This document shows positions 3,630 to 36,527 of a DNA stretch of 40,057 nucleotides, one piece after another (positions within the stretch are counted from its first letter, which is position 1; every line of letters starts with the position of its first letter). The translations under genes were made by a program, and so were the position numbers. The notes beneath the pieces were generated by a model. That model was not told the origin of the DNA and did not search any database. It saw nothing but the letters and a program-made list of their open reading frames with translations. Origin of the DNA: a virus; IMG/VR virus record IMGVR_UViG_3300009509_000137, positions 1 to 40,057 of that record; one strand, given 5' to 3'.

Positions 3630-3636
3630 GAGAGAC

Positions 3637-4044: not shown

Positions 4045-4119
4045 CCCGAAGCGATTCAAGCGCCCGCGGAGCGCCACCCACAGGACCGGTTTCCATTGCC
4101 AGGGGAGAGAGGAGACGTG

Positions 4120-6114: not shown

Positions 6115-6588
6115 ATGACGAAGATCAAAGGACTCGAACGGGAGCTGAACGGTATCTGTACGGAGGTAGAGATCGTTCTCGAATCAGGACATCTCTTTCT
6201 CTACGGCCACACGATGCTGAAACCTACCGGGCACGAGAACTTCATTCATGCCCTGCCCGGTCACTTCGGGAAGCATCTCGTCTACAGATTGGAGGGCGAA
6301 TCGGAGCAGACAGCGTCGACTGTCCTGATCGAGATCAGTCGACTAATCATGGCAATCGCGGCGCACTACGCGGAGATCGATACCGATCGCCACGTCGTGG
6401 ACTATGTGCGGCGTGAGTCGGCGAACGGTCGCCTGGTCGATCAACACTATCCATCCGACGACGCCGGTTCTTGTTTCAAGCATCTATTCGGACGTGATGC
6501 GACTGCTGACGAGGAGGATGTGTTCTCTGTTTTTTATTCGCACTGGGTCAAAGTGTTCGTAGAGCACGCGACCCGCAACGACTTGTGA
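6115..6588 (+). CDS. Hypothetical phage protein (157 aa)
   Basis: The start is ATG 6115, two nt after the previous stop, with GAGGGCTGACC upstream. The soluble mixed alpha/beta protein contains LFLYGHTMLKPTGHENF in its first third and an acidic SDDAGSC segment later. No membrane segment or known catalytic motif is visible. It lies in a run of five small early genes (5903-7784) of unknown function. Confidence 0.7.
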   Translation: MTKIKGLERELNGICTEVEIVLESGHLFLYGHTMLKPTGHENFIHALPGHFGKHLVYRLEGESEQTASTVLIEISRLIMAIAAHYAEIDTDRHVVDYVRRESANGRLVDQHYPSDDAGSCFKHLFGRDATADEEDVFSVFYSHWVKVFVEHATRNDL

Positions 6589-6605
6589 CCGAAAGGAGGG
6601 CAGGT

Positions 6606-7196
6606 ATGAAAACTCAAGAGAGGCATCTTCGACGATTCGTTTCGGAGATTGTCAAGCGTGGTGGCGAGACGGAGATCATTGGTAGGTACGGGCGAAAGAG
6701 TCTATGCATCATCGACACGGGAACCAGCGAGCGCCGGAAGGTTTGGCTTCTGCGCGCCGAAGGGTGGAGGCATTACAGTTATGGCTTCGGTTCGCGGAAG
6801 GCAATGCTCGCCTATCTGTGCGGGTACGACGACAGTGGGACATGGGCCGTTCGTGTACCCGGCCCCACGAAGACGGCGGAAGCAGCGATCAAGTACATCG
6901 TGCCGTCTCATGTACGCCTTGCGCGGCGCCTGGGCTGGAAGGTCAAAAGGCAGGGAGACGTCTACGCAGTATGTACATTGAAGCAGTACGATGGGACTGG
7001 GTTGACTACCATGATGTTCGTGCAACCGTACATCGGGCACGCCGTCATCAGCAACCACGAATTTCACCATACCTCGCGACTCCTGCTGCACCATTCCCAC
7101 GCCCCCGTCGTCATCGACTTCCCAGCGCGCTTCATCGCGCAGAACGCCCTGGGCATGGGTCGCGGTCGCGGCCGCGGCGCAGGCATGGCCGACTGA
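6606..7196 (+). CDS. Hypothetical phage protein with Gly-Arg tail (196 aa)
   Basis: The textbook ribosome binding site GGAGGGCAGG is followed by ATG 6606. The protein is basic, with residues such as WLLRAEGWRHYSYGFGSRKA and a His-rich segment HEFHHTSRLLLHHSH near residues 155-170. It ends in GRGRGRGAGMAD, a short Gly-Arg tail of the kind found in some nucleic-acid-binding proteins. No recognised domain; the His cluster might bind metal. Confidence 0.7.
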   Translation: MKTQERHLRRFVSEIVKRGGETEIIGRYGRKSLCIIDTGTSERRKVWLLRAEGWRHYSYGFGSRKAMLAYLCGYDDSGTWAVRVPGPTKTAEAAIKYIVPSHVRLARRLGWKVKRQGDVYAVCTLKQYDGTGLTTMMFVQPYIGHAVISNHEFHHTSRLLLHHSHAPVVIDFPARFIAQNALGMGRGRGRGAGMAD

Positions 7197-7210: not shown

Positions 7211-7600
7211 ATGAAGAACACAAGCATCGTTCTACACGCAAGGCACCTGAACTGGCTAGAGCGCTACGGAAACCCGACGTCTGCCCAGGTGCGCGAAGAT
7301 CTGGATATGTTACTTGAACTGCTTGCGATAGGCATCGAAGAGGTAACAGGCGTTTTTACTGCTGACGAGGCGCTGCTTCTCTGTGACGTCATCAATGGCT
7401 ACGACGTGATCAAAGACCCGAACGCACTCATGCGGTACGTACGCATCGTCTGCGATCTCGCCCTGGTCGACAAGGTCGAGAGTATGTCACCGCTTGCCCG
7501 TGTGACCTGCATCCACTTGGCGCGGAATTTTCTTACACGCAAGAAGCAGGACAGAAAAACCGCTGCCGTGGTCTTCAGAACGGTTGACCGTGATAGGTGA
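7211..7600 (+). CDS. Helical hypothetical protein (129 aa)
   Basis: ATG 7211 follows AAAGGAGTGAAGACC. The protein is mostly helical and Leu-rich (REDLDMLLELLAIGIEEVTG), soluble, and ends in a basic tail (RKKQDRKTAAVVFRTVDRDR). An alternative longer frame from 6704 shadows the preceding gene and is not used. No known domain. Confidence 0.7.
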   Translation: MKNTSIVLHARHLNWLERYGNPTSAQVREDLDMLLELLAIGIEEVTGVFTADEALLLCDVINGYDVIKDPNALMRYVRIVCDLALVDKVESMSPLARVTCIHLARNFLTRKKQDRKTAAVVFRTVDRDR

Positions 7601-7969: not shown

Positions 7970-8554
7970 GTTTCAAAATCAAAGCATGGGCGTGGAGGCG
8001 CACGACCAGGTGCAGGTGCACCGAAGGGAACGACGAACCGACTCGATCATGGTCTATCCAGGCGCGAACTGTTCGCCGGTTATCGTCCCAGCATGCGGCT
8101 GCTTATGGAGCACGCCGAAGCTGTCATTGCAAAGGAATCTCTACGCGAGACGCTCATCGACAGAGTTCGAGAAGAGATTGCCTGGTGTGACGCTGCCGAG
8201 TCCCAGCTTGCGGAAGACTTCGCTTCGCTTGACGGTCAAAGGAAAGACTGGCGAACCGGTGCGGCCGGCGATAGGTATCACGAGCGTCTCAGCAGGATCC
8301 AGAACCGACGCCGGCGCCTGGTCAAGCTACTCGCCGAGAACGAGAAAGACGTTCAGTCACTGCATCTCGAAGACGAAGACGGGAGAGATGAAAGGTTCAT
8401 CGCCGAGATCGATACGGGCCAGGGCGTTCTATTTGTACGGGAAGGTCTTGACCTGATCGCGGAGTGGGAACGACACGATGATCAGATTCTACCCGCGCAA
8501 TCCAAAGAACCCGACAGAGAGAGCGACATTCTACCCACATCAGAAACGGTTTAG
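7970..8554 (+). CDS. terS: Terminase small subunit (putative), unusual start codon
   Basis: The N-terminus SKHGRGGARPGAGAPKGTTN with LDHG nearby is the standard opening of many phage small terminase subunits. The rest is helical with a long charged coiled-coil centre (about residues 50-140). TerS binds phage DNA and feeds it to TerL, whose gene overlaps by 77 nt. The start is odd. The frame is open up to ATG 7847, but that ATG sits in the -10 of the promoter and has no ribosome binding site. A perfect phage-type site, GAGAGGGCAGG (7956-7966), lies just before GTT at 7970. I use GTT as the most likely initiation point; TTG 7901 is an alternative. Confidence 0.65.
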   Translation, partial: VSKSKHGRGGARPGAGAPKGTTNRLDHGLSRRELFAGYRPSMRLLMEHAEAVIAKESLRETLIDRVREEIAWCDAAESQLAEDFASLDGQRKDWRTGAAGDRYHERLSRIQNRRRRLVKLLAENEKDVQSLHLEDEDGRDERFIAEIDTGQGVLFVREGLDLIAEWERHDDQILPAQSKEPDRESDILPTSETV

Positions 8555-9893
8555 TGCATCGCGCGCTCGCAATACTTACATGGCGGGAGGGTGGAGGGCA
8601 GGAAAGAGCTATGGCGCCCTGGGATTTTGTTGGGTGTCGATGTTCCTGAATCCCGGCTGCAAGGGCGCCATAATAGAACCCACCTATGCACTGATGCGCG
8701 ACTTCATGAGAGACAAGTTTATACCCGCGTTCAAGCCATACATCATAGGCGAGTCGAAGAGAGACAACACGCTGTTCCTTCGCAATGGGATCAGCGTACT
8801 GTACCTCTCTGGTCATGACCTACGGAAACTCGAACAGTACGAACTTGCTTGGTTGCTCGGCGACGAAGCTGGTCTGATGAAGGGCGATCTGTTTGTGCGT
8901 GCGAACGCCCGTGTCAACGATCCGAAGGCAGGTCATCAACGCGTCGGATTCGTCGGCACTCCCAAAATGGGATGGTTGTCTGACACCTTCGAGGGCAGAG
9001 ACGATTCACAGCGCAGAATCATACACGCGAAGACTACAGACAATCTCGCGAACACACCGGAATTCATAGAGGGCCTGTATGCCTCGTGCCCAAGAAGACT
9101 GCAAGACGCGTACATCAACGGGAAGTTCGTTCCCACCGGTGGCGTGGTGTACGCCGAGTACGATCCAACCACGCACATCATACCGTGGAAACATACGGAC
9201 ATGGTGCGCCTCGCTAATGGAGACGTAGCAAAACCCGTCTTAAACCTGGCCGTCGATTTCAGTCCCAGACGCCCTCATGTGCTCTGGATACAGCGCGTGC
9301 CGAAGGGCGCCATCATGCCAGGTGGTTGGGTCACGAAACGCGAGGTCTCGATCGTCGTCGATGAAGTTTATCCCGACGGCCAGTTCAGGGCAGTCACCAT
9401 CAAAAGACTGTCTCGCGGTATACGCAAGCGACCCAGGCAGGACAAGATGGGACCATGGGTGTTTTCGGAGATCGTGTGCGACCCGGCCGGAAAGAAGCGC
9501 GAGGCGACATCAGGAGAGTCGGAGATTATCCAGCTGCAAAAGTATCTCGATGTTCCTGTGCTGTTTCTGCACGGCGAGCGTATTCGCATCGGAGTGCAGC
9601 ACGTACAGCTTGCACTCGACCCGATGGAAGGGCATCCGTTTCTTTTCTTCAGCGATTACCTGTTGCATAATCCAGACCCTACTATGGGAACAGGAGACCC
9701 AGACGAGAACGCATCTCGATCGGTTCTGAAGTCGCTGGAAGGGTACGCATACGAAGAGGGCAAGCACGGAAAGATGCCAGACGAACCTTACCACGACGAC
9801 ATGTTCTCGCATTCAATGGACACCGTGCGCTATCATGTCCGCTTCTATTACCCGGAGGACCGTCTCTCGATTGAGGCGTGGTCCGCTGCCTGA
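8478..9893 (+). CDS. terL: Terminase large subunit
   Basis: A 471-residue packaging motor. An adenine-binding (Q) motif FYPHQKRF precedes the Walker A motif GGWRAGKS (residues 37-44). Walker B is LLGDEAGL (about 130). The C-terminal RNase H-like nuclease has LAVDFSPRR (about 260), VCDPAGKK and YHDDMFSHSMDTVRY near the end, which supply the acidic metal ligands. The ATPase pumps DNA through the portal and the nuclease cuts the concatemer. The start ATG 8478 lies within terS. It is followed 9 nt later by the portal gene. Confidence 0.95.
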   Translation: MIRFYPRNPKNPTERATFYPHQKRFSASRARNTYMAGGWRAGKSYGALGFCWVSMFLNPGCKGAIIEPTYALMRDFMRDKFIPAFKPYIIGESKRDNTLFLRNGISVLYLSGHDLRKLEQYELAWLLGDEAGLMKGDLFVRANARVNDPKAGHQRVGFVGTPKMGWLSDTFEGRDDSQRRIIHAKTTDNLANTPEFIEGLYASCPRRLQDAYINGKFVPTGGVVYAEYDPTTHIIPWKHTDMVRLANGDVAKPVLNLAVDFSPRRPHVLWIQRVPKGAIMPGGWVTKREVSIVVDEVYPDGQFRAVTIKRLSRGIRKRPRQDKMGPWVFSEIVCDPAGKKREATSGESEIIQLQKYLDVPVLFLHGERIRIGVQHVQLALDPMEGHPFLFFSDYLLHNPDPTMGTGDPDENASRSVLKSLEGYAYEEGKHGKMPDEPYHDDMFSHSMDTVRYHVRFYYPEDRLSIEAWSAA

Positions 9894-15447: not shown

Positions 15448-16605
15448 GTGACGACCTACGAACGAGACGGCATGACTTCCGACAAGCTGGTCGGACTGCA
15501 TACCGCGTACTCGAACTCTGTATTCATGGCGAAGAGAGCAGACGTCCCAGTACTGGGATACCTCTCGCCCAGCTTGCGCAATCTGCACACCGACGACGGC
15601 ATGGTTCCGTTCGGGCAGAAGGCATACAAGTACAAAGAAAAAACCTACATGCCAGGTCGAACGACTCTGAACGGTGCGCTTGCAGCAGCTGCTGTCTCGG
15701 TGACGTTCGCCGAGAAGGTGTTCCGGCCCGGCGACCTGGCCGTTCTGAACGATGAAGTGATCACGCTGGTCAGTTCCGACGACTACCTGACCTTTGTCTG
15801 CACCCGGTCGACTTTCACCGGTGCCGACGCCGCGCACGCAGACGGCGACGTCGCCCTGCTGTTCGGGACGTCCTATGTAGAGAACAGCGCCGCGCCCACG
15901 GCCGGAGCCATCTCGCAGGCGACCGAAGTGACCACGTCGACGGACGTGTTCATCGACACCGTGCAGGTGTCCGGTTCCGCACGCTACATGCAGCAGTATG
16001 CCGAAGGCAATCAAGACAAGATGATCCAGTACACCAGCGAATGCATGGACGGCATGCTGCAACAGCTGCAGACCAGGTACTTGTTCTCAGATTACCAGGC
16101 CGCGAGTGGAGAAACCACGGCCGGCCGAATGGACGGGGCGTATGAACGGATCGCAGGTTCGAACTACGTGAACTTCAGTTCTGCCGATCTCACGTACCCG
16201 GATATTCAGAAGATGTACCGCATGTGCAAGCGCAAGGGCGGAAGTCCGCGCGCGCTGTTCATCTCCGACTACCAGGGGCACATCGCCGACCAGTGGATCA
16301 TGGCCTACGGTCAAGTATCTGCTTCCGAACTGGCACAGGCAATCTTCGGTTCGCATGTTCGCGCGATTCGAGTCGGCAACGACGTGCTGGACATCATCAG
16401 CACCGACATCATGCAGAAACTCGCCCTGATGGTCACGGTCGAGAACACCGGAGTCGGACCGAAAGACGCCTCGCGTGTCTTCCATCCCGAGCAACTGGGT
16501 AAAGACGGAGACCGCGACAAGGTCATGGTCGTCGGAGAGTACACCTGCGAATGGGCGAACGCGTACACCCATTGCTGGGGTCTGAGCGTAAACTACTCCA
16601 CCTGA
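15448..16605 (+). CDS. Major capsid protein (SU10/DUF5309-like)
   Basis: A 385-residue HK97-fold coat protein starting at GTG 15448 after GAGAGGAGTGG. The central part shows the DUF5309 (SU10 major capsid) pattern: an inserted beta domain (FRPGDLAVLNDEVITLVSSD ... TFTGADAAHADGDVALLFG), then TDVFIDTVQVSGSARYMQQ and a long helix. The end (RVFHPEQLGKDGDRDKVMVV, GEYTCEWANAYTHCWGLS) is the C-terminal strand region. Several hundred copies form the head shell. It is preceded by scaffold and followed by a completion-type protein. Confidence 0.88.
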   Translation: MTTYERDGMTSDKLVGLHTAYSNSVFMAKRADVPVLGYLSPSLRNLHTDDGMVPFGQKAYKYKEKTYMPGRTTLNGALAAAAVSVTFAEKVFRPGDLAVLNDEVITLVSSDDYLTFVCTRSTFTGADAAHADGDVALLFGTSYVENSAAPTAGAISQATEVTTSTDVFIDTVQVSGSARYMQQYAEGNQDKMIQYTSECMDGMLQQLQTRYLFSDYQAASGETTAGRMDGAYERIAGSNYVNFSSADLTYPDIQKMYRMCKRKGGSPRALFISDYQGHIADQWIMAYGQVSASELAQAIFGSHVRAIRVGNDVLDIISTDIMQKLALMVTVENTGVGPKDASRVFHPEQLGKDGDRDKVMVVGEYTCEWANAYTHCWGLSVNYST

Positions 16606-16638: not shown

Positions 16639-17241
16639 ATGATGGTACGCTACAAGAGGCAGGAAGACGAAGCAGAAGAGAAGTTCGAGAATGAAGCACC
16701 GGTGGCCTACGAAAAGAAGGCAGCGCCTCTCCCCGAAGGTGTTCTGTTCTGGCATCGTCGGAGAGTCGAGACCGCTGCAGGCCCTGTCTACTACGACGAC
16801 CCGAAGCTGTTCCCGGCGAACGCTCCGATCCCGATGGCAGAATACGCTCGCATCGAGTACCCGAAGGGTTCAGGTCAGACCCTGAAGATTCACGGGGCAC
16901 GTCGAATCAACGATCGCAACGTCATTGCCTACCTCGTGTTGACGCACAAGAAACCGAAGCCTGTCAACGCCCCTGGCCCGAAGGCAGGCGCTCTGCTGTA
17001 CGAAGGAAAAGAAATCGTAGGTCAGGGATTCATGACCGAAGAGGAACTGAAAGACGCGGCCGAAAGAAACATTCCGCCCGACTGGTATCGCCCGCCCAAT
17101 GAACCAGCACCGAATTTCAACATGTTCCCCGACTCGGAACTGGATCGGTGGGCGACCCAGAACAACGTGCACAACTACGATTTCAGCGCGAAGCGCTGGG
17201 AAAAGATCGGTCGCCTGAACCTGTACTGCAAAAACCGGTAG
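16639..17241 (+). CDS. Head-completion/neck-region hypothetical protein (200 aa)
   Basis: Two adjacent ATGs (16639, 16642) follow GGAGGATCG. The protein has an acidic N-terminus (YKRQEDEAEEKFENEA), a central beta-like part (LFWHRRRVETAAGPVYYDD ... LVLTHKKPKP) and a C-terminal FMTEEELKDAAERNIPPDWY segment. The position after the capsid gene suggests a completion or decoration role. I recognise no family. Confidence 0.7.
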   Translation: MMVRYKRQEDEAEEKFENEAPVAYEKKAAPLPEGVLFWHRRRVETAAGPVYYDDPKLFPANAPIPMAEYARIEYPKGSGQTLKIHGARRINDRNVIAYLVLTHKKPKPVNAPGPKAGALLYEGKEIVGQGFMTEEELKDAAERNIPPDWYRPPNEPAPNFNMFPDSELDRWATQNNVHNYDFSAKRWEKIGRLNLYCKNR

Positions 17242-17264: not shown

Positions 17265-17987
17265 ATGAAGCGACTTCACAAGCTGATCTTCGCCCTGGGC
17301 ACCGTGGCCGTGGCTTGCATGATCTGCATGCCCATCATGGCCGCGCACATTCCCACGGGTGCGAATTCCACGTCGAGTGCCGCGCAGTTCAAGCACGCCT
17401 CGCCGTTCTCCCAGAACTTCGTTTTCGATAAGCCGCGGATCTGGATCCCGTTGCATCAGGCTAACATCGACGTGAATACCACGAACGACGGAGGCATCAC
17501 TACCACATCCGTCGTCCGATCCGTGGGTACTGGTTCGGTCTCGCTGTTGGAGATCAATTCCAGCGAAGTGAACGGGTTCACGTTCGACAGTGACAACGAT
17601 TCGGTTGGGTTTATGATCCCGATTCCGCACGACATCGATCTCGCGCAGCAGATTGGATTGCGCGTGTTGTGGTCGAACAGCGAAGCAGCTGCCACGGGCA
17701 CCGCGCGCTTCTATTTCAAGTATATTCCGCTGACCGTCGGAACCGATGCAATCGCTGTTGGTTCCACGGCCATGGGAACCGACGGCGCCGCGCAGGCCGA
17801 TCTCGGCGCTAATGTTTTGCAGTGGTCGACCTGGTCGTACATCGCCGCGTCGACTCTTACCGACGTACCCGGCGATGGTGTGCTTGTATTCAAGCTGTAC
17901 GTCGATGTGACGACGATCGCCGATTGTAGCGTCTTTGGCGTACAGCTAGAATATAGCCGCAAGTGGTTGGGCGGCGATAACTTGTAG
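17265..17987 (+). CDS. Exported beta-sandwich protein after the capsid gene (signal peptide)
   Basis: A 240-residue protein with a clear Sec-type signal: MKRLHKLIFALGTVAVACMI, then CMPIMAA, with likely cleavage after about residue 27. The mature part is Gly/Thr/Asp-rich and beta-structured (DNDSVGFMIPIPHDIDLAQQ, GLRVLWSNSEAAATG ... LVFKLYVDVTTI ... VFGVQLEYSRKW). It resembles small structural 'decoration/head fibre' proteins of environmental phages in composition, but I know of no function for an exported version. It starts at ATG 17265 after GAGAGGAAAGAAACA. A structured non-coding stretch follows. Confidence 0.75.
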   Translation: MKRLHKLIFALGTVAVACMICMPIMAAHIPTGANSTSSAAQFKHASPFSQNFVFDKPRIWIPLHQANIDVNTTNDGGITTTSVVRSVGTGSVSLLEINSSEVNGFTFDSDNDSVGFMIPIPHDIDLAQQIGLRVLWSNSEAAATGTARFYFKYIPLTVGTDAIAVGSTAMGTDGAAQADLGANVLQWSTWSYIAASTLTDVPGDGVLVFKLYVDVTTIADCSVFGVQLEYSRKWLGGDNL

Positions 17988-18098
17988 AAATACAAGGGTA
18001 TTTTGGAGGCTTCAAAATATTCCAATTGTACGGCATATCGTTCAATGGGGCACTGGCCCGGCCTGGTAACAGGCGCAACCACAGGACCGGGCCAGTGC
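17981..18098 (+). other. Three consecutive hairpins in a non-coding gap
   Basis: CTTGTA-GAAA-TACAAG (17981-17996) overlaps the stop codon of the previous gene. TATTTTG-GAGGCTT-CAAAATA (17999-18019) follows it. GCACTGGCCCGG (18050-18061) then pairs perfectly with CCGGGCCAGTGC (18087-18098), enclosing CCTG-GTAA-CAGG. None has a long T tract. The stretch could be a terminator/attenuator, an RNase-processing site or a small structured RNA. Confidence 0.65.
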
Positions 18099-18114
18099 TT
18101 CATCTGAGGTCACA

Positions 18115-18522
18115 ATGAACAGAACCTTGATCGTCGTCGTCGTTCTGGCTCTCGCCGCCGGCTGCAATCTAGAACGCAAAAGCAGAGCACAGGCTTCATT
18201 CGAGGCGTGGTGGGCGACTCTAGATCAGACGGAGCAGGACAGGATCAGGCAGCAGCAGGTCGTCTGGAACTGCCCAGGTCTTGATTGTTCATACCAGGTA
18301 GAACTGACCGACACCGGAAGAACAGAACCGGGTGCAGACCTGTTCGTGCGATGGTGGAATTCACAGGATCCTGCTGTACTCGAAGCCTGGATCAGACAGG
18401 TGAACGCGGAAAAAATGCAGAACATGCGAGGCAAGGTCAGCGACGAAGTGATCAGAGAATACTTGACCAGCACGGCCACGTTCAGGCCGCTGAAACTCGA
18501 ATTCGTGGAGGCAGACAAATGA
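18115..18522 (+). CDS. Phage-encoded lipoprotein (135 aa)
   Basis: MNRTLIVVVVLALAAGCNLE is a type II signal with lipobox LAAGC, so the mature protein would start at Cys17 with lipid attached. The rest is soluble, with VVWNCPGLDCSYQVELTD, two Trp-rich helices (WWATLDQTEQDRIRQQ; FVRWWNSQDPAVLEAW) and two further Cys. Start ATG 18115 follows GAGGTCACA. The TGA overlaps the next gene (ATGA). It would be anchored in the host inner or outer membrane. Function unknown; immunity or surface display are possibilities. Confidence 0.75.
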   Translation: MNRTLIVVVVLALAAGCNLERKSRAQASFEAWWATLDQTEQDRIRQQQVVWNCPGLDCSYQVELTDTGRTEPGADLFVRWWNSQDPAVLEAWIRQVNAEKMQNMRGKVSDEVIREYLTSTATFRPLKLEFVEADK

Positions 18523-20564
18523 AGCGGATCATCATCGCCCTGGCCGTGCTGGGCCTGTTACTCTCTGCACGGACGGCCACCGGTGCAGGAGTCAACGGCC
18601 GTTCAATGACCGGTAAATCAACCGAACTGAGAACCGACATTCATGGGAAGGCACTCCCCGGGAATGTCATGCTGTTCTACCTCGGCGACTGCGAGACAGC
18701 GACCGGATGGACTGCCCTCAGCAACGACACGACCACGATCGCCGTAGGGACGAACCATGTAGAAGGGACCTACTCTCTCTCGTACGCAAAGGTCAACGGA
18801 ACCGCGAACACGACGCTGGGCGCTGTCTACGCTACGCTATCGGCAGACGAGAATGCACGCTGGCCAGATCGACCATACAGCGTGAACATCACAGACGTCG
18901 TTCAGAATAACGGCCTTCTTGTTGGTTCAGTCTACGTTTCTGCATTGACGAATGTGGCCTATGCCTTCATCAGGATCGGAACGAGTTCTGCGGCGTACAA
19001 CGAATACAGGCTTGCCGATTCCGAGATGGCAGTTGGCTGGAACCAGTTTCGCGTTCCGCTAAACAGGCCGACGTCTGTCACTGGCGCAGGTCTCGACAGC
19101 GACGCCCTGGCCTACATCGTTCTGGGCGTCGGATTCGACGCAGAAACTGACGCGCTCGCTGGAATCCTGTGGGACAATGTTGGCGTCAGTTATACCACTC
19201 CCGTCGTCGCTTCGCTGGAACCGATAACACGGGCAATCCTTTCTGCGATCATGACGGCAGTTCAGTACATCGACGACATTGTCAAGGTAGACGACGCTGC
19301 CTTTACTCCGGGCACGTCAAAGATCGCCGTGGTTGGATATACCTTCGACGATGTTTCCCCTGACAGCGTGAACGAGGGCGACGCGGGCGCTGGGAGAATA
19401 AGCGCGAACCGATGCCAGTACTTCAATCTCCGCGACGGGGCCGGCGGTGAATACGGGCAGCACGTCGACCAGTACGGACGCGCCGAAGTCATGCCGTTTG
19501 AACTGGCAATCCTTGACGCCTGCGACAGCGCCACCGGATGGACCGCATACGGGAACGATACGGACAACCTAGATACCAGCACGAACCATGTGCAGGGAAC
19601 GCTCGGCCTATCTTTCGACAAAGTCGACGGGGCGGCGGGAACAACCACGGCGGGCGCATATCGCACGATTTCAAGCACGGACATCTCGAAGTACTTAGGA
19701 TGTGGCGGAATCCTCGGCACGTCGATCTACATCTCGTCATTGACAGACGTCGACTATGCTTTTCTGCGGATCGGTACTGATACGACGAATTACGCAGAAT
19801 GGCGCGTGCAAGATGACGACCTCGTCGCCGGTTGGAATAGCGCCGTCTTTCAGCTATGCCAGCCCTACTCGATAACCGGCAACGGGCACAATACGGCTGC
19901 AATCACGCACGTCGGCATCGGCGTAGTTTTCGACGGTGAAGACGACGCCCTCGCAGAAATTGTTTTCGACCCGGTGGCTGTGAGCAGTGGCCAGCATGTT
20001 CGCACGTCGATCGCAACGGCGACGTCGATCGCGACGCCGAACATCAACCTGCATCGAGTCGGAGGGCAGCCGGTGGATACAGGGGCGGGGAATATCGGTA
20101 ACGCTACCCAGCGCGTCACCATCGCAACGGACGACGCGAACCTGGCCACGATTGCTGGCTGGAATAACAGCGGCGACGCGGGCGTCGACATAGCAGCACA
20201 GACGTTGACTGCTGTGAAGATCAGCGACGACGCCAGCGCGAACGCAGAGGGCAATCCGATCTACGCGCAGACGGTCAACCCTGTTTTCGACGATAGCGAC
20301 ACGGCGAACTGTGTCGCTATCACGGGAGGCAGCGTACAGTTTACCATGCCGGGCAATGATGGATATTGGCTATGCGCGAACGGCGGAACTGCGTACGTCT
20401 ACTGTGCAGCAAACCCGACCGTCACCACAGCCGTCGGTAATTTTACGACGATCGTGGGTGATGGACAATGCAAACCCGGAAGGGAATATCCAAGCGCAAA
20501 GTGCGCCGTCATCGGCGCGGTAGCAGGCGGGTTTATTTGCTTCGAAGCATATGATTACAACTGA
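18519..20564 (+). CDS. Large exported protein with two tandem homologous domains
   Basis: A 681-residue protein starting at ATG 18519 in an ATGA overlap. The signal peptide MKRIIIALAVLGLLLSARTA is followed by a short linker and domain copy 1 (about 53-225: GDCETATGWTALSNDTT ... YAFIRIGTSSAAYNEYRL ... LVGSVYVSAL). Copy 2 (about 331-490: LDACDSATGWTAYGNDTDNL ... YAFLRIGTDTTNYAEWRV ... GTSIYISSL) is clearly homologous. The domains look like beta-sandwich carbohydrate-binding modules. The last 190 residues include NIGNATQRVTIATDDANLAT, a phrase typical of phage fibre-like proteins, and several Cys. The role could be virion decoration or host-surface binding; export is the odd part. Confidence 0.75.
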   Translation: MKRIIIALAVLGLLLSARTATGAGVNGRSMTGKSTELRTDIHGKALPGNVMLFYLGDCETATGWTALSNDTTTIAVGTNHVEGTYSLSYAKVNGTANTTLGAVYATLSADENARWPDRPYSVNITDVVQNNGLLVGSVYVSALTNVAYAFIRIGTSSAAYNEYRLADSEMAVGWNQFRVPLNRPTSVTGAGLDSDALAYIVLGVGFDAETDALAGILWDNVGVSYTTPVVASLEPITRAILSAIMTAVQYIDDIVKVDDAAFTPGTSKIAVVGYTFDDVSPDSVNEGDAGAGRISANRCQYFNLRDGAGGEYGQHVDQYGRAEVMPFELAILDACDSATGWTAYGNDTDNLDTSTNHVQGTLGLSFDKVDGAAGTTTAGAYRTISSTDISKYLGCGGILGTSIYISSLTDVDYAFLRIGTDTTNYAEWRVQDDDLVAGWNSAVFQLCQPYSITGNGHNTAAITHVGIGVVFDGEDDALAEIVFDPVAVSSGQHVRTSIATATSIATPNINLHRVGGQPVDTGAGNIGNATQRVTIATDDANLATIAGWNNSGDAGVDIAAQTLTAVKISDDASANAEGNPIYAQTVNPVFDDSDTANCVAITGGSVQFTMPGNDGYWLCANGGTAYVYCAANPTVTTAVGNFTTIVGDGQCKPGREYPSAKCAVIGAVAGGFICFEAYDYN

Positions 20565-20571
20565 GGATAAC

Positions 20572-22218
20572 ATGCGCCGACTCCTGATCCTATTCTTGCT
20601 TTTCTCCGCTGCCTTCGTCGGCGCACGCGAGCGCAGTGCCCTGGTTGTACGCTCGTTCCCGTTCACGCATTCCGGATATCTCGACGTGAACCACGGCGGC
20701 GCGGCGACGATGTGGATCGATTTCTCGCAGGACCCGAGCGGTGCCACCATCACGACCTCGGACGGCGGGTATACTTTGACGAAAGCGGGGGCGCCGGCGA
20801 GGGTCAATGATGGGACGTGGCCCGCGGGGCTGTCGGGGGCGCAGGGGTACGCGCACGATCTAAACGGCGTGGATGATGAGTGGTACAGGGCAGACACCGG
20901 AGCGGGGGACGCCTTCGAACCGTCCGGTAGTTTTTCTGTACGTTGCGCATTGACCGCCCATGACGTCAGTGGATCTCAAGACATCATCGGAAAATGGACG
21001 GCGTTGGGCAGTCAACGTGGATGGAAACTGTACCTGTCCACAACAACCGTGGGTCTTGGTGTTAGCGATGATGGAACGACAGACGCTGGTCATGTTTCAT
21101 ATGCTTCAAAGGCGGCGGCTGTATCTAAATTTGTACCTGCGTTCATAACGGCAAGTTATCAGTACGTAGCGGATGGATCTAGCGTTGGGAATGTCTATGT
21201 GAACAATCTTTCGACAGGCTCAAATTCTTCTATGGATGGCCCAGCATTCGATAACACATCGAATTTTGAAATTGGATCAGGAAGCGGAAACTTTTTCAAC
21301 GGACTGATTCATCATTGCGCCTACTATGACGGCGTGGTCCTGACCGAAGCCGATCACGATTTTGCCTTTGCCCAGTGGCAGGGGCGCATGTCAACGACCG
21401 GGAACGTGGCCACGGTGACCAGCGCCGCGCCTCCCGATGTGATCATGGCACCGCCGGCGAGCGGCACAGAGCCGTTCATCGTTCCGCAGCCGGCGAATGC
21501 CTCGTACATCGGCAGCCCGGCCGCTGGGTCAGGCGGCGCGTATGGCGCAAGTGGCATAACGAACCTGGCCTACAGATCGCGAATCTGTTGGACGCAGACG
21601 GGAGGAAACGAGCCACAAGGTTGGGGAAGCGTAGAAACGGCCGGCGACGGGTCGGCAGACATTTCGTGTTCCACCGACTACGCGGCGAATGGTCTATACA
21701 GTGCGAAAACGGTTCTGACGGGAACGACTTCGTACGCTTCGATTCGAACAGCATGCATCACGACCGGCATCGGCAGCGACATCTATCTCAGCGCGTATCA
21801 GATGTGCGCGAGCGGAACATGCACGTCACAGCTACGCGTGCTTGAATACGACGCAGCCGATTGCACTTCTTACCTCGCCGATACGCTCGTGATTGGAACG
21901 GTCGGGACAACTGCATGGGCGAAGTTCGGCGGCACCTTTGCAAGCGGTTCATGGAATGGATCGACATCTTCGTACAAGGTTCATCTTTTCGACTCCGGAG
22001 ATTCAGGCACGACAACCTACTGGTCGGCGCCGATGGTCCGGGTAGCGTCGCAACCACACGACGGATTCTGTGGCAACGACGCAGACAGCGCGGCAGTATG
22101 CAATGATGTCGTCTATACGATCGCGAATCCCTTGACGTCAGGTGGGACCTGGGAAATCACGGGCACGACCAGGACGCCGATTGACTGGGCGAGGCAGGGA
22201 CGCCCAGCATGCTCTTGA
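20572..22218 (+). CDS. Exported LamG-like lectin protein, probably truncated by a frameshift
   Basis: ATG 20572 follows GAGGATAAC and opens the signal peptide MRRLLILFLLFSAAFVGA. A concanavalin/LamG-like domain spans about 40-270 (MWIDFSQDPSGATITTSDGG ... FSVRCALTAHDVSGSQDIIG ... NFFNGLIHHCAYYDGVVLTE). A second beta module follows at about 330-500 (SRICWTQTGGNEPQGWGS ... Cys-rich). A third module starts near 510 (TIANPLTSGGTWEITG) and stops after WARQGRPACS. The -1 frame then carries what looks like the rest of that module (22185-22547). The in-frame protein is 548 residues. It may bind glycans. Confidence 0.75.
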   Translation: MRRLLILFLLFSAAFVGARERSALVVRSFPFTHSGYLDVNHGGAATMWIDFSQDPSGATITTSDGGYTLTKAGAPARVNDGTWPAGLSGAQGYAHDLNGVDDEWYRADTGAGDAFEPSGSFSVRCALTAHDVSGSQDIIGKWTALGSQRGWKLYLSTTTVGLGVSDDGTTDAGHVSYASKAAAVSKFVPAFITASYQYVADGSSVGNVYVNNLSTGSNSSMDGPAFDNTSNFEIGSGSGNFFNGLIHHCAYYDGVVLTEADHDFAFAQWQGRMSTTGNVATVTSAAPPDVIMAPPASGTEPFIVPQPANASYIGSPAAGSGGAYGASGITNLAYRSRICWTQTGGNEPQGWGSVETAGDGSADISCSTDYAANGLYSAKTVLTGTTSYASIRTACITTGIGSDIYLSAYQMCASGTCTSQLRVLEYDAADCTSYLADTLVIGTVGTTAWAKFGGTFASGSWNGSTSSYKVHLFDSGDSGTTTYWSAPMVRVASQPHDGFCGNDADSAAVCNDVVYTIANPLTSGGTWEITGTTRTPIDWARQGRPACS

Positions 22219-22547
22219 TACCTGGCAGCCCTGCGCTTGAAAATAGGATTGTAATAGATGCGGCGGCTGATATATTTTACGGATTCGCGTGGGACTATGC
22301 GGGGACACCGCGGAGCAGTTCTATATCCGCCGCCGGGAATGCAGATACAGACTATCCCTGGTCAGTAACCAAGTACTTTACCGGGGCGATCACTGCGTGC
22401 TGGAACGGCACTTGTGACGCTACGCCTGGCAGTGACGCGCTACAGACTGCACAGACTGCCACTGCGTACTTGGTAGTGCAGACATCCGCGACCGGCGCTG
22501 ACCTTTGGCTGAATAGCCTGAAGACATACCGAAGGGGCACGAAATGA
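22185..22547 (+). pseudogene. C-terminal fragment of the LamG-like protein in the -1 frame
   Basis: The -1 frame opens after a TGA at 22182-22184 and reads GTPSMLLIPGSPALENRIVI ... DIFYGFAWDYAGTPRSS ... ADLWLNSLKTYRRGTK to a TGA at 22545-22547. This continues the interrupted third module of the gene at 20572. The first ATG (22209) has no ribosome binding site, so separate expression is unlikely. A single-base deletion near 22198 (CAGGGACGCC), a sequencing error, or less likely frameshifting would explain it. No slippery heptamer is present. Confidence 0.6.
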
Positions 22548-23101
22548 ACAAGCTGGGACCTGTGGCTTTTGTGTCTTTCTTCCTGGCCGCCGGAGGAATC
22601 TACTTCATCGGCGGCGAAGAACTGGAAGCGACCGCTGTTGAAACGCTGCGCCCGGCCCGGCTGCCCGCTGAGACCACGTCCCAACAGCTTGCCGAGGATT
22701 GCGACGGCGGCGCTGTTCTGCTTCCCGATGAAGGAGCATGGATCTGTCTTACCAGCAAAGAAACAATCGTAGACGAGATCATGTCGATGCCTTCTGGCCA
22801 GAAGCGCGACCTTCTAATCTGCGACGAGGAGGACCCAGAAGATGGCGGTACCTGGGTGACTCGCGTCCGCTACCTCCCCAGTGGCACCTTGCCTCCCAAG
22901 TGTAAACTGGTATGTTCTGACCTGCTGTGGCCTGGGTATTCAATTGGAACAGTAGAGACCGGAGTGGAGGCTTGTCTTCGCGAAGCCTGCGATCCATGTC
23001 AAGTGACCGCTGGGCACTGGGATCAGTGCCCGCACTGCCTATCAGACATCACACCATCATGCGCCGAGACCTGCCCGGCGCCAGAGGAGTTCGAACCATG
23101 A
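22544..23101 (+). CDS. Exported or membrane-anchored Cys-rich protein (185 aa)
   Basis: The start ATG 22544 overlaps the previous stop (ATGA). The N-terminus KLGPVAFVSFFLAAGGIYFI is a signal peptide or membrane anchor. The remainder holds about a dozen Cys, in clusters such as CDGGAVLLPDEGAWIC, PPKCKLVCSD and a C-terminal CDPCQVTAGHWDQCPHC. In the periplasm these would form disulphides, which fits export. No family recognised. It is coupled to the next lipoprotein by an ATGA overlap. Confidence 0.7.
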   Translation: MNKLGPVAFVSFFLAAGGIYFIGGEELEATAVETLRPARLPAETTSQQLAEDCDGGAVLLPDEGAWICLTSKETIVDEIMSMPSGQKRDLLICDEEDPEDGGTWVTRVRYLPSGTLPPKCKLVCSDLLWPGYSIGTVETGVEACLREACDPCQVTAGHWDQCPHCLSDITPSCAETCPAPEEFEP

Positions 23102-23373
23102 AAGCAATCGCCCTCGCAATCGCCCTCGCACTCTGTTCTGGCTGTGCCATCGACCACGCGCACGCATACCCGAACGAGAAGGTGTGCCAGCCCTGCCCGC
23201 AAGTGAAGTTCGTGCAGTGCTTCCCTGAACCGACAGAGCAGGCAGTGATCTGTCATTACCCGTATTGGGTTCAGGACTCGAAGACGAAGGAATGGTTTCG
23301 CCTGTGGATCCCGACCGTCTGTTCTCCCGGTTGCGTGGACGCAGACGGAGCGAAAATTCCCGGTTGCAAATAG
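23098..23373 (+). CDS. Small Cys-rich lipoprotein (91 aa)
   Basis: MKAIALAIALALCSGCAIDH shows a lipoprotein signal with LCSGC lipobox. The mature part has seven or eight more Cys (CQPCPQVKFVQCFPEP, VICHYPYWVQD, VCSPGCVDADG, final GCK), which suggests a disulphide-bonded periplasmic or surface domain. The gene begins in the ATGA overlap with the Cys-rich protein upstream, so the two are probably co-translated and may act together. Function unknown. Confidence 0.7.
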   Translation: MKAIALAIALALCSGCAIDHAHAYPNEKVCQPCPQVKFVQCFPEPTEQAVICHYPYWVQDSKTKEWFRLWIPTVCSPGCVDADGAKIPGCK

Positions 23374-23379: not shown

Positions 23380-23889
23380 GTGGTGAGTGACATCACGATA
23401 ATAATACTCAGCTCGATCGGTGGGTTCATTGCCCTTTTGATCAGCGGCATGGCATCATTGATTTTCTTCGGACTGAAACGACACGTCAAGCGCACAGATG
23501 AGCAGTTCGACCTGCACTCTGAGAAACTGAAGATGGTCGCCGACCGCTTCGATTTGAAGAGTAGAGACGACGACAAGCGCGACGAACAACTGAAAGCTGG
23601 CCGGGCTACCTTCGAGGAAATACGAAAGTCGCTGAAGTCGATCAACAAGTGGATCGAATCATTGCCTGGTCAGTTCGTACAGACGGCGCAGTTCGAGAAC
23701 TTCTGCGAGACCTACCGGCTGGACAAGGTAGAGCAAGACAAGCGCATCGCAGAGATTCGGGCTGGGTGGGAAGACATCAGGGGAGAGATTCACGGTATAG
23801 GGCAGCGAGTCGACGGGGCGCTACGGGCGATTACCGACATCGTTGCCCGAGAACATGGGCCAGTCGGCAGTCAGGAGGTACCACAATGA
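23380..23889 (+). CDS. Membrane-anchored coiled-coil protein (169 aa)
   Basis: GTG 23380 (or GTG 23383) opens a protein with one long N-terminal hydrophobic segment (ITIIILSSIGGFIALLISGM, then ASLIFFGL, about 5-33). A charged coiled coil follows (EQFDLHSEKLKMVADRFDLK ... RKSLKSINKWIESLPGQF). The layout resembles phage inner-membrane proteins that sit near holin or tail genes. A function cannot be given. GGAGGT near its 3' end is the ribosome binding site of the next gene. Confidence 0.7.
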   Translation: MVSDITIIILSSIGGFIALLISGMASLIFFGLKRHVKRTDEQFDLHSEKLKMVADRFDLKSRDDDKRDEQLKAGRATFEEIRKSLKSINKWIESLPGQFVQTAQFENFCETYRLDKVEQDKRIAEIRAGWEDIRGEIHGIGQRVDGALRAITDIVAREHGPVGSQEVPQ

Positions 23890-24599
23890 TCGAGGGCATC
23901 ATACAAGGGATCAAGTACGGGTCGAGTTCGCACCGGGTATACGCTCGTCTTCGTGCTGATGGTGCCGACGGTTCTGCCGATGCGGAAACGAACGTAACAA
24001 TCACGATCGAAAACCCGGAAGGTACGGTTGTCAAGTCAGCGGTGAACATGACCCAGGTGGGTTCGACAGCTGTCTACTACTACGACCTTGACGTTTCAAC
24101 GACCGCGACCTGGGCGCTTGGTTATGGATACCAGGCCCATATACAATGGACGCAGTCATCTCTGGCCCGCGAAGATTACATTTATCTTGACGTGGTACGC
24201 TGGCCGTTCAATGACCCACTGTGGACGACGCAGGAGATCGACGCGATGCGCCCGGCCTGGGCGGGGAAGAAACCAGGATCGTGGACAACGTGGACGGAAG
24301 CGATTGAACAAGCACACGCGAAGTTCCACGCTGATCTTCGCGAACGACGTGATGACAAGGGAGAGCCTATCTATCCGCACAGAATCCTGGTTCGCGAACA
24401 GGTCAGGCAGGCACAGCTGGCATACATATTGCTAGAGATTGCCCTTGCCGGTGTGCGTCTGCAGACCGACGAACGCCAGTTCTACATTGATGCGGCGAAC
24501 GATGCCATACCTACCCTGATTACCCTTGACCGCGACGACGACTTGATCGACGGCGGTGCAGACGAGGAGGCAGCGCAAGCGACAACGTTCGCGCATTGA
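23886..24599 (+). CDS. Probable neck/head-tail connector protein (237 aa)
   Basis: ATG 23886 follows GGAGGTACCACA and overlaps the previous stop. The N-terminal half is beta-rich (SSSHRVYARLRADGADGSAD, NVTITIENPEGTVVKSAV) and the C-terminal half is helical (LWTTQEIDAMRPAWAGKKPG ... REQVRQAQLAYILLEIALAG). A mixed fold of this size at this position, between capsid and tail tube, fits a head-tail joining protein. I do not recognise a named family. Confidence 0.6.
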   Translation: MIEGIIQGIKYGSSSHRVYARLRADGADGSADAETNVTITIENPEGTVVKSAVNMTQVGSTAVYYYDLDVSTTATWALGYGYQAHIQWTQSSLAREDYIYLDVVRWPFNDPLWTTQEIDAMRPAWAGKKPGSWTTWTEAIEQAHAKFHADLRERRDDKGEPIYPHRILVREQVRQAQLAYILLEIALAGVRLQTDERQFYIDAANDAIPTLITLDRDDDLIDGGADEEAAQATTFAH

Positions 24600-32836: not shown

Positions 32837-34712
32837 TGCTGGCGGTGTGCCTGGCAAGGCAGAAGTAGACAGCCAGGGCTGCCAGGAATATAGACCTGTA
32901 CCGTCAGCAGAGTTGTTCAATGAAGTATTCGTTGACTCTGCAGGAGAGGCGCAGCACTTCGTGAACGCGGTGAACGCGCTCTACATGCAGAACAGGCGCA
33001 TCGGTCAGGTGGTCCCGTCATACTTCCCCACTGATAGCACTGGAATGGACATGGTGCTTGACGTAGGCGCGAACTGGGGGAAGACGATCAGGACAATCAA
33101 CACGAAGGGCATGCTCACCGGTGCTGCCAAGCGGATCAAGGCTTGGATCTTCTATCAAACCGACGGTGCGAATACGTTGAACCTGCACCTGGAGTGTGGG
33201 CGACATCGTGGTGTAACCGAAAGCATCGAGTCTGTATCCTGGGCCTGGGCATCGGTAGAGTGCGAGGTCGACCCGGTGACACGGACAAACCTCAAACGCA
33301 ATCAGAACCTGAACTTGTTTGTAACCGCCGGCGACACGGCCGTGCAGATCACGATCAGGTCGATCTCGATTCACGAAATGGGAGACACGGCCGCGCCTGA
33401 CTTCATCGACACCAGCGGCGCGAGCAACGTTCTGGGAGAGGACGACTTCCCTTACTCTTCGGCCATGTGCTACGTGCTGAACAATAACATAAAAGCGGTG
33501 CGCGCTTGGAGGCTTCCACAGACGAATATTATGAACCACTGCATGACCGATCCGGTCAAGGCGGTCAGCGGATCCTTTGATGGTGATTATCGCGGCCTGG
33601 GCCAGTACATCATCAGGAAGTCGAAGGGGTGGACTGAGATCAACGGGATGGTCGGACTCATCATCGACACCGGGGGCGCCGGTGGTACCGCAGAGCTATC
33701 GTTCCGCATTTATACAACGGCCGGTGTCTACGTCGCCGGCGACCTGGTCGACGTCACGGCAAACGGGTACTACACCTTCAATGTTACCGGGCTGAGTAGC
33801 GCAGAGACCGAGTACGAGTTACGCATCGACGCACGGGAAAAAGTCTACCGCATAGACACGGTGCAGATCCTGGAAGTTTTCGCCGCAGATGACATCGCGA
33901 ATGCGAGTCCGTACCATGACGACACGCCGAAGCTGGGCGATGTGATGTCGGAAGACGACGTTGTTTCAAATACCTGGTTGCACGCGAAGCAAGTACTCGA
34001 ACAGATCTGGTTCGATGGTGGCAAAACTCTGTTGAATGATTACCGGTGGGACACGTCTGCGCTTGACGGGAATTTTTACCCAGTACTGTCGCGCGGCTTG
34101 CTGTTTCCTACTTATGGATCGAAGTGGCTTCACTTTCGGATGGACCTGCGCAAGCCCACCCAGGAAAAAACCGGGATGCTTGCTTATGACGGTAGGGCAG
34201 GCAACTTCACCGACGGCTTGATCTTGATAGGCGCATCGAGTGGAGCGACGGCATACATCACGTACCACACCGGAGACGGTGCAGCGACTGGCGTCTTGTA
34301 TCTTCGCGGTATCAACGGGGCATTCATCGACAACGAGGCGTTGTCCGACAGCGGGGGCGGAAGCGCGAACGCGAACGGCCTGGTCGATACAATCACGGGC
34401 CAGGTGGTAGAAGTTCGCACGATGATCACACCGACATATCCGTCGTGGACTGCAGGCACGATGTATGCGAAAGAGACCATCGACATCACGGACAAACCAG
34501 GCGAGAGGGTGTTCACGATTGAATCACGTCTGCCGATCCCTGCTGAGTACTGGAACGACCACAGCAAGCACGGGGCGTATCCTATTTGCTTCGAGTTCTT
34601 GACCCGCACGACGATCGACGGTACCGAAGTTACCGGAACAGGACTGGCCGATGGTGACGCCGTCGATTATACACAGCTGATCCAATCACATATATATGAG
34701 GAGGCAGGTTGA
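32811..34712 (+). CDS. Tail fibre/receptor-binding-like protein (633 aa)
   Basis: ATG 32811 after GGGAGCAGGGA is preferred over an extension to 32736 that runs through the previous gene. The protein is beta-rich with repeated sandwich-like parts (LRIDAREKVYRIDTVQILEV, TAELSFRIYTTAGVYVAGDL) and a C-terminal GANASSGATAYITYHTGDG-like segment (about 475-510). It is located after the hub and before the endolysin, where fibres usually lie. It has no signal peptide, unlike the genes at 17265-23101. Confidence 0.65.
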   Translation: MSLGTSISDAGGVPGKAEVDSQGCQEYRPVPSAELFNEVFVDSAGEAQHFVNAVNALYMQNRRIGQVVPSYFPTDSTGMDMVLDVGANWGKTIRTINTKGMLTGAAKRIKAWIFYQTDGANTLNLHLECGRHRGVTESIESVSWAWASVECEVDPVTRTNLKRNQNLNLFVTAGDTAVQITIRSISIHEMGDTAAPDFIDTSGASNVLGEDDFPYSSAMCYVLNNNIKAVRAWRLPQTNIMNHCMTDPVKAVSGSFDGDYRGLGQYIIRKSKGWTEINGMVGLIIDTGGAGGTAELSFRIYTTAGVYVAGDLVDVTANGYYTFNVTGLSSAETEYELRIDAREKVYRIDTVQILEVFAADDIANASPYHDDTPKLGDVMSEDDVVSNTWLHAKQVLEQIWFDGGKTLLNDYRWDTSALDGNFYPVLSRGLLFPTYGSKWLHFRMDLRKPTQEKTGMLAYDGRAGNFTDGLILIGASSGATAYITYHTGDGAATGVLYLRGINGAFIDNEALSDSGGGSANANGLVDTITGQVVEVRTMITPTYPSWTAGTMYAKETIDITDKPGERVFTIESRLPIPAEYWNDHSKHGAYPICFEFLTRTTIDGTEVTGTGLADGDAVDYTQLIQSHIYEEAG

Positions 34713-35416
34713 CAGTTGTCCTATACAGTATCGCGCACAGCGACCCGAACGACGAACCGGGTGTCGTGACTCCGAACGGGATCAGCGAACGAGACGTTGC
34801 CGAAGATGCAGCGACCGGTCTGTTCATGCGCCTGAAGAACAGGGGAATCCGAGTCGAGAGATTCAGTGGGCCATTGGAACGCACGGTGCGCGTGATGCGT
34901 GAGACGGTGCGGGCCCTGCGCAAGCTGGAAGAAAAACACGTTTGCCTAGAACTGCACTTCAATTCACCGCCACCGGCGCCGTGTGACCTGTGCGGTCGTG
35001 ACTGGGTCAAGGGTGTAGCTTGCCCGTACTGCGGACACATGCCAGCGCGCCGGTGGCGTATGGGCCATACGGCTCTGGTCAGCAGGTACCACGAAAGCAG
35101 CGTGATGCTCGCAGATGCTATTCTGACTCGGTTGTCCGAATTGTTCCCATGGTCGAACAGACGACCACCGATCAAGCTACCAGATCACAGATACGGACCG
35201 AAGGTATGGCCCGAGTCGATGTCACCGCCGGCTGCACTCATCGAAGCAGGTTTTGCGTGTGATCCAGACTTCGCGATGTACGTGAGAGAGAGAATCAGTC
35301 GCATCGCCCTGGGTCAGATGGTAGCAGAGGGCGTACTGGACTTTCTTGCTGCAACGAGCGATATTCAACCGGCCGAATGGGGCCGTAGCATGGAGGTGCG
35401 CCGTGGACTGGGCTAA
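34709..35416 (+). CDS. Endolysin: Amidase_3-type N-acetylmuramoyl-L-alanine amidase with inserted zinc ribbon
   Basis: TTG 34709 follows GAGGAGGCAGG and overlaps the previous stop. The 235-residue enzyme has the zinc ligands of Amidase_3: H10 (YSIAHSD), E27 (NGISERDV) and H83 (LELHFNS), plus catalytic E179 (AALIEAGF). It should cut the bond between muramic acid and L-alanine in peptidoglycan. Uniquely, right after LHFNS there is a four-Cys zinc ribbon (C92, C95, C105, C108: CDLCGRDW...ACPYCG), where the family normally has a substrate loop. There is no signal peptide, so export needs the holin. Confidence 0.85.
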   Translation: MTVVLYSIAHSDPNDEPGVVTPNGISERDVAEDAATGLFMRLKNRGIRVERFSGPLERTVRVMRETVRALRKLEEKHVCLELHFNSPPPAPCDLCGRDWVKGVACPYCGHMPARRWRMGHTALVSRYHESSVMLADAILTRLSELFPWSNRRPPIKLPDHRYGPKVWPESMSPPAALIEAGFACDPDFAMYVRERISRIALGQMVAEGVLDFLAATSDIQPAEWGRSMEVRRGLG

Positions 35417-35606: not shown

Positions 35607-35806
35607 TGTTCTGGAGTCAATCAGTGGGTATCAAAATACAGCGTACGCGAACATGTCCGAACTGCAAGACGATCCAGCCGATCGGCCGGGCGTGTGGGAT
35701 CTGCGGACGACCAGTCGAACCACCGGCGGATCTGGAAAGGTGCCCAGGTTGCGAACGCAGCCGGCCGGTGGGTACTGAGTGCCCGTGGTGCGGGGAACCC
35801 GTGTGA
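35606..35806 (+). CDS. Double zinc-ribbon protein within the lysis cassette
   Basis: A 66-residue protein starting at ATG 35606 in a TGATG overlap with the holin. It contains four CxxC motifs in regular order: TCPNCKTIQP, ACGICGRPVE, RCPGCERSRP and CPWCGEPV. Two zinc ribbons are therefore expected. Proteins of this kind often bind nucleic acids or other proteins. Its place among lysis genes, next to an endolysin that also carries a zinc ribbon, is unusual. An overlapping frame from 35596 lacks these motifs and is not used. Confidence 0.75.
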   Translation: MFWSQSVGIKIQRTRTCPNCKTIQPIGRACGICGRPVEPPADLERCPGCERSRPVGTECPWCGEPV

Positions 35807-36138
35807 TGTGGAAGCGATTCATCGAAGCGATCAAGACTCTCCCCCGGTGGGCCTGGGTGGCCCTGTCTGTCCTCCTGACTGTGTTCGGTCTGCGGGCACT
35901 CTGGCGACACATCCGGTACCTGCCCTCCCGGTTGATGCCAGGGTGCCCGCAGTCGGGCCAGTCGGTTGGGCCCGTGGTCTCGCCGGCCGAAGCGGAAAAG
36001 AAACGCACGGCCATTGTCAGAGACTACCGGGAGAGGACCGAGATCATCGACGCGCAGGCGGACGAAGAGATTCGCGAACTAGATGAGTGGTTGGAAAACA
36101 CCGATACGGATCCCGATTCGGAAGGTACGCCGCAATGA
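35806..36138 (+). CDS. Membrane-anchored coiled-coil protein, i-spanin candidate
   Basis: ATG 35806 (TGATG overlap) opens a 110-residue protein with an N-terminal transmembrane segment (LPRWAWVALSVLLTVFGLRA, about 11-30). A basic linker and a charged helical C-terminus follow (AEAEKKRTAIVRDYRERTEI ... EEIRELDEWLENT). That is the plan of an inner-membrane spanin (Rz-like). The next gene is a lipoprotein, as expected for a spanin pair. Confidence 0.6.
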   Translation: MWKRFIEAIKTLPRWAWVALSVLLTVFGLRALWRHIRYLPSRLMPGCPQSGQSVGPVVSPAEAEKKRTAIVRDYRERTEIIDAQADEEIRELDEWLENTDTDPDSEGTPQ

Positions 36139-36527
36139 ATAGAGCCCATTGCCTGTTCGTCGCGCTCGTGCTGGCCGCTGGTTGCAGCGGTCGGTCAAGG
36201 GTGCAGCCCTCCCCTGGAATCGAGACGCACTGGCGGGCTCTAAAATCGTCGTGTAAGGTGGGAACAGATTCTGTCAACTGCGACAAGCGGACCTTTCGCG
36301 ATGTGATTGCGACTTGTATCGAGACCGGAAGACATGCCCAAAATATCCAGGCACAGCTTGATAGTCTCGTGAAAACTTCCGCAGTGGACTTGGCCGCGAA
36401 AGAAGCAGAGGTACAACGCTATAAAACAAAAGCAGAAGACCCGTGGCGATCGCCCTGGTTGTGGTTTGGCATCGGTGCTGCAGCTGGTACGGCAGTCGGC
36501 GTCGGCGTGGGTCTCGGAACGAGGTGA
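36135..36527 (+). CDS. Lipoprotein with C-terminal membrane segment, u-spanin candidate
   Basis: The N-terminus MNRAHCLFVALVLAAGCSGR carries lipobox LAAGC. The central part is helical (IETGRHAQNIQAQLDSLVKT ... KEAEVQRYK). The C-terminus has PWLWFGIGAAAGTAVGVGVG, a Gly-rich membrane span. A lipobox plus C-terminal span is the architecture of unimolecular spanins (T1 gp11 type), which fuse inner and outer membranes at lysis. The gene overlaps the i-spanin candidate by ATGA. Confidence 0.65.
   Translation: MNRAHCLFVALVLAAGCSGRSRVQPSPGIETHWRALKSSCKVGTDSVNCDKRTFRDVIATCIETGRHAQNIQAQLDSLVKTSAVDLAAKEAEVQRYKTKAEDPWRSPWLWFGIGAAAGTAVGVGVGLGTR

Follow-up and report, generated by a model that had tools for sequence, protein, structure and literature searches.

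Tailed phages are thought to assemble wholly in the cytoplasm and to export no more than their lysis proteins and a few exclusion factors. The latter include T5 Llp and phi80 Cor, which block receptors as lipoproteins or envelope proteins; the gene block described here also encodes predicted lipoproteins, but Llp and Cor are single small proteins. T4 Spackle (gp61.3) is a periplasmic inhibitor of the tail lysozyme with a cleaved Sec signal, and a phage may therefore direct a protein to the periplasm by means of such a signal (PMC7650644). Spackle is a single 97-aa inhibitor that counters arriving phages or tail protein gone astray (PMC7650644). Members of the block likewise appear to be sent to the periplasm, but they form an adhesin-type set within a structural operon.

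Virion adhesins and decoration proteins (Ig, lectin, and LamG types; e.g., Hoc and the DGR lectins) have glycan-binding-type domains, as is predicted for block proteins, with the difference that the block proteins carry signals. In a survey of phage DGRs, the target proteins, mostly of lectin fold, were without signal peptides, unlike their bacterial counterparts (PMC6199706), and a signal-bearing block is therefore unusual. No paper on Sec-tagged virion-type gene blocks turned up in a search of the open-licence literature.

Gene setting and relatives of the block

The window, i.e., the whole stretch of DNA that was analysed, is a 40,057-nt IMG/VR virus record of a tailed phage that encodes replication and recombination genes and an amidase endolysin. 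Genes are designated by their start positions, and all window features given here lie on the plus strand. From gene order and predicted signals, the block is a Sec-tagged set amid late virion genes, lying between head genes and tail genes. It is anchored upstream by the major capsid protein gene (15448..16605; Pfam SU10_MCP, 6.8e-21; PHROG 1328, 2.4e-9) and bordered downstream by a head-tail connector-type gene (23886..24599; 47-54% identity in L004/L009), the function of which is assigned by position. A conserved cytoplasmic-type protein without a signal (16639..17241; 44-55% identity in L004/L009) lies between capsid gene and block; its counterpart sits inside the block in L004 and L009, but before it in the window.

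The relatives of the phage are L004 (with its near-duplicate L003) and L009, which have a capsid identity of 61-64% and largely keep the gene order, while the block proteins share only about 25-50% identity with their homologues. Comparison of the capsid, block, and connector proteins with viral contigs gave no relatives beyond these, and the terminase relatives L016, L018, and L019 are contigs too short to extend to the block. Capsid and terminase alignments against 84,980 genomes, in a pattern-based search of limited sensitivity, matched no relative, prophage, or host. By tblastn in the phage collection, nothing was found for 15448, 17265, and 20572, and module matches only for 18519; full-length homologues of block proteins were not found in named phages.

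Export signals and cysteines

The sequence-only reading described six consecutive genes (17265, 18115, 18519, 20572, 22544, and 23098) with Sec signals or lipoboxes. All six starts and N termini are present in the translations as described, and the gene overlaps are real (18522/18519, 22218/22209, 22547/22544, 23101/23098, and 23889/23886). The run has six signal-bearing genes but seven ORFs, as 22209 is without a signal. In a rule-based heuristic scan, six of the nine positives genome-wide fall within the block, such that a signal peptide, lipobox, or N-terminal anchor is present in 6/7 block ORFs versus 3/43 other genes (hypergeometric P of ≥6/7 = 3.5e-5). N-terminal hydrophobicity (best 11-residue mean) ranges from 2.25 to 3.46 for the six block proteins; among the other curated genes, values above 2.1 are seen only for 23380 (2.43) and 36087/36135 (2.74). 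Features of Sec substrates (basic n-region, hydrophobic core, and AxA or lipobox) are found by rule-based scans and alignments, with 22544 and the 23098 lipobox being borderline. Comparison with related phages, which the sequence-only reading had named as one way to refute it, does not do so, as the hydrophobic N termini are kept rather than lost in L004 and L009.

Cysteine makes up 2.58% of the mature block proteins versus 0.87% in other genes (P = 3e-8). For any single protein, the claim that an oxidising compartment is the one place where the Cys-rich proteins make sense goes too far, but the link between signal peptide and cysteine content is statistically clear. Because the signals are kept in relatives, the lipobox Cys is conserved, Cys is enriched, the tagging recurs in unrelated phages, and a signal cassette is duplicated in L062 (see below), the block proteins are very probably exported. 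That the hydrophobic N termini serve instead in the virion or in packaging, or arose by chance, is very unlikely: the signals were called by a heuristic predictor, but the kept lipobox Cys, the AxA-type motifs, the Cys enrichment, the clustering, and a duplicated cassette ending at a cleavage motif all stand against it.

The block proteins

The first gene (17265..17987) encodes a predicted exported protein of beta-sandwich type with the signal peptide MKRLHKLIFALGTVAVACMICMPIMA and a weak jelly-roll/CBM-like fold (pLDDT 55). Its homologues in L004 and L009 retain a signal though the first 30 residues barely align. As the Cys18 "lipobox" is not conserved, the protein is better read as a substrate of signal peptidase I type than as a lipoprotein. 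Structure matches to IBDV VP2 were taken as a generic jelly roll rather than as kinship, the model being poor and a hint of fold only. The intergenic stretch (17988..18114) that separates the first two block genes holds two strong RNA hairpins (GCACTGGCCCGG...CCGGGCCAGTGC) with a fold z of -6.6, none of 200 shuffles being equally stable. An Rfam search of the stretch gave no match, and a terminator reading was dropped, as no T-run follows the hairpins; the pair may act in the processing of the mRNA or in attenuation. The second gene (18115..18522) encodes a lipoprotein with the lipobox LAAGC, the Cys17 of which is invariant in the window, L004, and L009.

The predicted exported protein 18519 (18519..20564; signal MKRIIIALAVLGLLLSARTATG) comprises two CBM-like repeats, identified by repeat alignment (18669..19220 and 19503..20153), and between them a DDAAFTPGTSK module (19266..19424). 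Its homologues, L004 13095 and L009 13025, are also signal bearing and begin MLKRLILILALMWALPAHGQ and MWKRIKGSVHPGLIVLLVSLLVAGLMGYALA, respectively. Pfam gave no match for 18519; a fold model of the repeat, at a low-confidence pLDDT of 52, has CBM30/11/16/27 as best PDB matches, with E values of about 2e-4 to 6e-4.

The LamG-related protein 20572 (20572..22218; signal MRRLLILFLLFSAAFVGA) has no Pfam match of its own but shares 36% identity over 526 aa with L009 13831, which is also signal bearing and begins MRRILLLVLGFILIPLALLA. The LamG protein at this position in L004 begins MKRLLIAFLLLALPVQA, and the signal-bearing L004 block protein 14726 is a Laminin_G_3 protein (Pfam, 1e-16). Protein 20572 is also related to a LamG-type tail-region protein of L009, itself a weak Laminin_G_3 match below the curated cut-off. 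This tail-region protein is without a signal while its block relative in the same phage has one, providing an internal control. The next ORF (22209..22547) is entered by a frame change, has no signal of its own, and continues 20572 at its C-terminal end: in L009, the two are fused into a single 670-aa protein. The junction shows no canonical slippery heptamer, which disfavours a programmed frameshift; the split more likely stems from one base that differs in this phage or in the assembly.

Protein 22544 (22544..23101) is Cys-rich (12 Cys), with an N terminus that looks like a hydrophobic anchor rather than a clearly cleaved signal; its positional homologue L009 15840 (E value 1e-4) is likewise Cys-rich and N-anchored. 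The last block gene (23098..23373) encodes a small Cys-rich lipoprotein in which, in an alignment of the three phages, Cys16 and Cys 30, 33, 41, 52, 75, 79, and 90 are invariant. Its lipobox, CSGC, is atypical, but the lipobox Cys residues of VAGC (L009) and FGAC (L004) share the alignment position of Cys16. In Pfam and PHROG scans, neither 18115 nor 23098 matches the families of T5 Llp, phi80 Cor, or similar exclusion lipoproteins.

The lectin-like or carbohydrate-binding-like members noted in the sequence-only reading fit the CBM-like and LamG-related domains suggested by fold models and domain relatives. From these weak models (pLDDT 52-55) and relatives, we predict that block proteins may bind glycans.

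The DDAAFTPGTSK module in other phages

The 53-residue module of 18519 occurs in no fewer than 169 viral contigs, and most of the proteins that carry it have no signal peptide. Eighty of these contigs were read: 73 module proteins are without a signal, with MADNVTLDPGVGGATIATDD as a typical start, and seven bear one (L024, which is L009, and L027, L032, L062, L071, L086, and L096). The median number of Cys per 100 residues is 1.21 in signal-bearing versus 0.20 in signal-less proteins (P = 4e-6), comparing 8 proteins, the window protein added, with 65 non-redundant ones, uncorrected for kinship and with about six lineages. Neighbouring proteins follow the same division, as 18.4% are Sec-tagged beside signal-bearing module proteins and 2.3% beside signal-less ones (P = 8e-6, kinship ignored); they include beta-helix and fibronectin-type proteins. 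The module protein of L103 (7044-8705) is an exception to the signal/cysteine link, having 16 Cys and no signal; a downstream 862-aa protein of the same contig (13547-16135) has 58 Cys. In L096, two signal-less MADN-type proteins (3383-4093 and 6375-6755) immediately precede the module protein at 6756, which bears a signal, and both kinds therefore coexist in one phage.

In MW202554 and the IMG/VR contigs L027, L032, L062, L071, L086, and L096, between two and four Sec-tagged proteins of module, LamG, or beta-helix type form a run; we found no description of these phages as a group. MW202554 (L107; Podoviridae sp. ctLwi270, Manatee Spring) is a complete circular podovirus in GenBank with three consecutive Sec-tagged genes directly after the portal gene, encoding a 13-Cys module protein, an unannotated protein of 195 aa (8195-8782), and a LamG lectin. 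In MW202647, from the same spring, the module protein has no signal and 1 Cys, and in MW202601 a signal-less module protein is positioned after the capsid gene. L062 has phage terminase and portal genes and an epsilon15-type capsid protein that shares 57% identity with its phiV10 counterpart. It carries a 57-nt cassette that encodes exactly one signal peptide at two places, 7008-7064 and 7417-7473 (56/57 identical), preceding two different adjacent proteins. The repeat stops at the AWA cleavage motif, and the second mature part starts with Met (MPVDLQQSDG directly after AWA). Such a cassette duplication was not seen in any other locus checked. As in the window, the Sec-tagged genes of MW202554 and L062 lie among structural genes, but the lineages differ and the domains differ in part. 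From these comparisons, predicted export of virion-type proteins is well supported and recurrent across unrelated phages.

Possible roles of the block

We tentatively favour a reading of the block as exported counterparts of virion adhesins that mask envelope glycans, the role, glycan binding, localisation, and expression time being what we infer from the genes; it may well be wrong, but it and virion appendages (below) lead, and we prefer it of the two. The counterpart reading is drawn from building blocks that recur in signal-less proteins of other phages and, in the case of LamG, among the tail-region proteins of a close relative. The glycan-binding-type members would be 17265, 18519, and 20572 with 22209, alongside the lipoproteins 18115 and 23098 and the anchored Cys-rich 22544. 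Produced together with head and tail proteins late in infection, they would traverse the inner membrane, shed their signals, gain disulfides in the periplasm, and be kept at the envelope via the lipoproteins or freed at lysis. There they could cover the glycans used by virions, on infected cells late in infection or on debris, which would spare progeny from capture by debris and by already infected siblings and would exclude superinfection. Against such masking, the block lies among structural genes, whereas a classical exclusion factor tends to be one small protein expressed early; exported proteins might also reattach to virions after lysis. In Pfam and PHROG scans, no block protein matches a known exclusion protein family.

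The rather less probable alternative is that the adhesin-type proteins mature in the periplasm, where disulfides form, and join virions as lysis proceeds or afterwards, decorating heads or tails and binding environmental or host glycans. The sequence-only reading had set a virion role aside on the grounds that virion proteins assembled in the cytoplasm do not normally carry such signals; a module shared with proteins that are signal-less in most phages, one of them after the capsid gene in MW202601, opens the case for virion parts maturing outside the cytoplasm. The place of the block within the structural operon points the same way, as do signal peptides apparently added before complete proteins, as the Met directly after AWA in L062 suggests. 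Yet lipoproteins would be expected to remain in membranes, 73 of the 80 module proteins read do without a signal, and we know of no tailed phage that builds virions from Sec-exported parts.

A lysis role is improbable, though part of the block has the look of one, with 22544 and 23098 as an i-spanin/o-spanin pair and 23380 as a holin-associated membrane protein. The gene order, the ATGA overlap of 22544 and 23098, and their topology would fit two-component spanins, which have an anchored partner and a lipoprotein encoded by overlapping genes and which contain cysteines (PMC6139136). Directly after 23098, 23380 (23380..23889) encodes a membrane protein with an N-terminal TM segment and a long helical tail that is holin/XhlA-like at most by layout; the topology of its counterparts, L004 16657 and L009 16735, is variable. 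The block pair is, however, far from the endolysin. The window has a separate lysis region at 34.7-36.5 kb, 11 kb from the block, with an N-acetylmuramoyl-L-alanine amidase endolysin (34709..35416; Pfam Amidase_3, 7.4e-8), a single-TM protein from the signal scan and layout (35806..36138), and, overlapping the latter, a lipoprotein gene (36135..36527; homologue L004 17161). This lipoprotein, with lipobox LAAGC and a C-terminal TM segment from its hydrophobic stretch, has a u-spanin-like layout, but it has Cys after the lipobox, whereas 58 surveyed u-spanins are without periplasmic Cys (PMC6139136). The layout of an anchored gene beside a lipoprotein gene fits the window and roughly L009, but L004 retains the 23098-type lipoprotein without such an adjacent partner. 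A lysis device would also leave the large adhesin-type proteins unexplained.

Still less probable is that the block is cargo (a moron set) by which infected cells or lysogens gain an altered surface or extracellular matrix that serves the host, e.g., in particle adhesion. The CBM-like and LamG domains, and the Sec-tagged beta-helix and fibronectin-type proteins of other loci, would suit such a function. However, the base composition of the block is that of the rest of the phage genome, the genes are tightly coupled to structural genes and kept in three phages, and the limited pattern-based search of the 84,980 genomes gave no capsid or terminase relatives.

Implications

Taking in the other loci, we propose, again tentatively and short of an even chance, that unrelated tailed phages may have independently tagged copies of virion-type adhesins with signal peptides. 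The result would be a secreted, disulfide-bonded glycan-binding system, free or reattached to virions after lysis: a secretome inside a morphogenesis operon. The conserved and apparently genuine export signals, several of them on proteins built like virion glycan-binding proteins, together with the same tagging in unrelated phages, suggest that relatives of particle proteins are, in some phages, deliberately secreted while infection is under way. The combined signature of cysteines and signal peptides offers a simple genome-wide screen. Conserved Sec-tagged adhesin operons would mean either that phages secrete receptor decoys or masks or that the cytoplasm is not where all virion parts mature, and either outcome would alter the annotation of lectin-like phage proteins.
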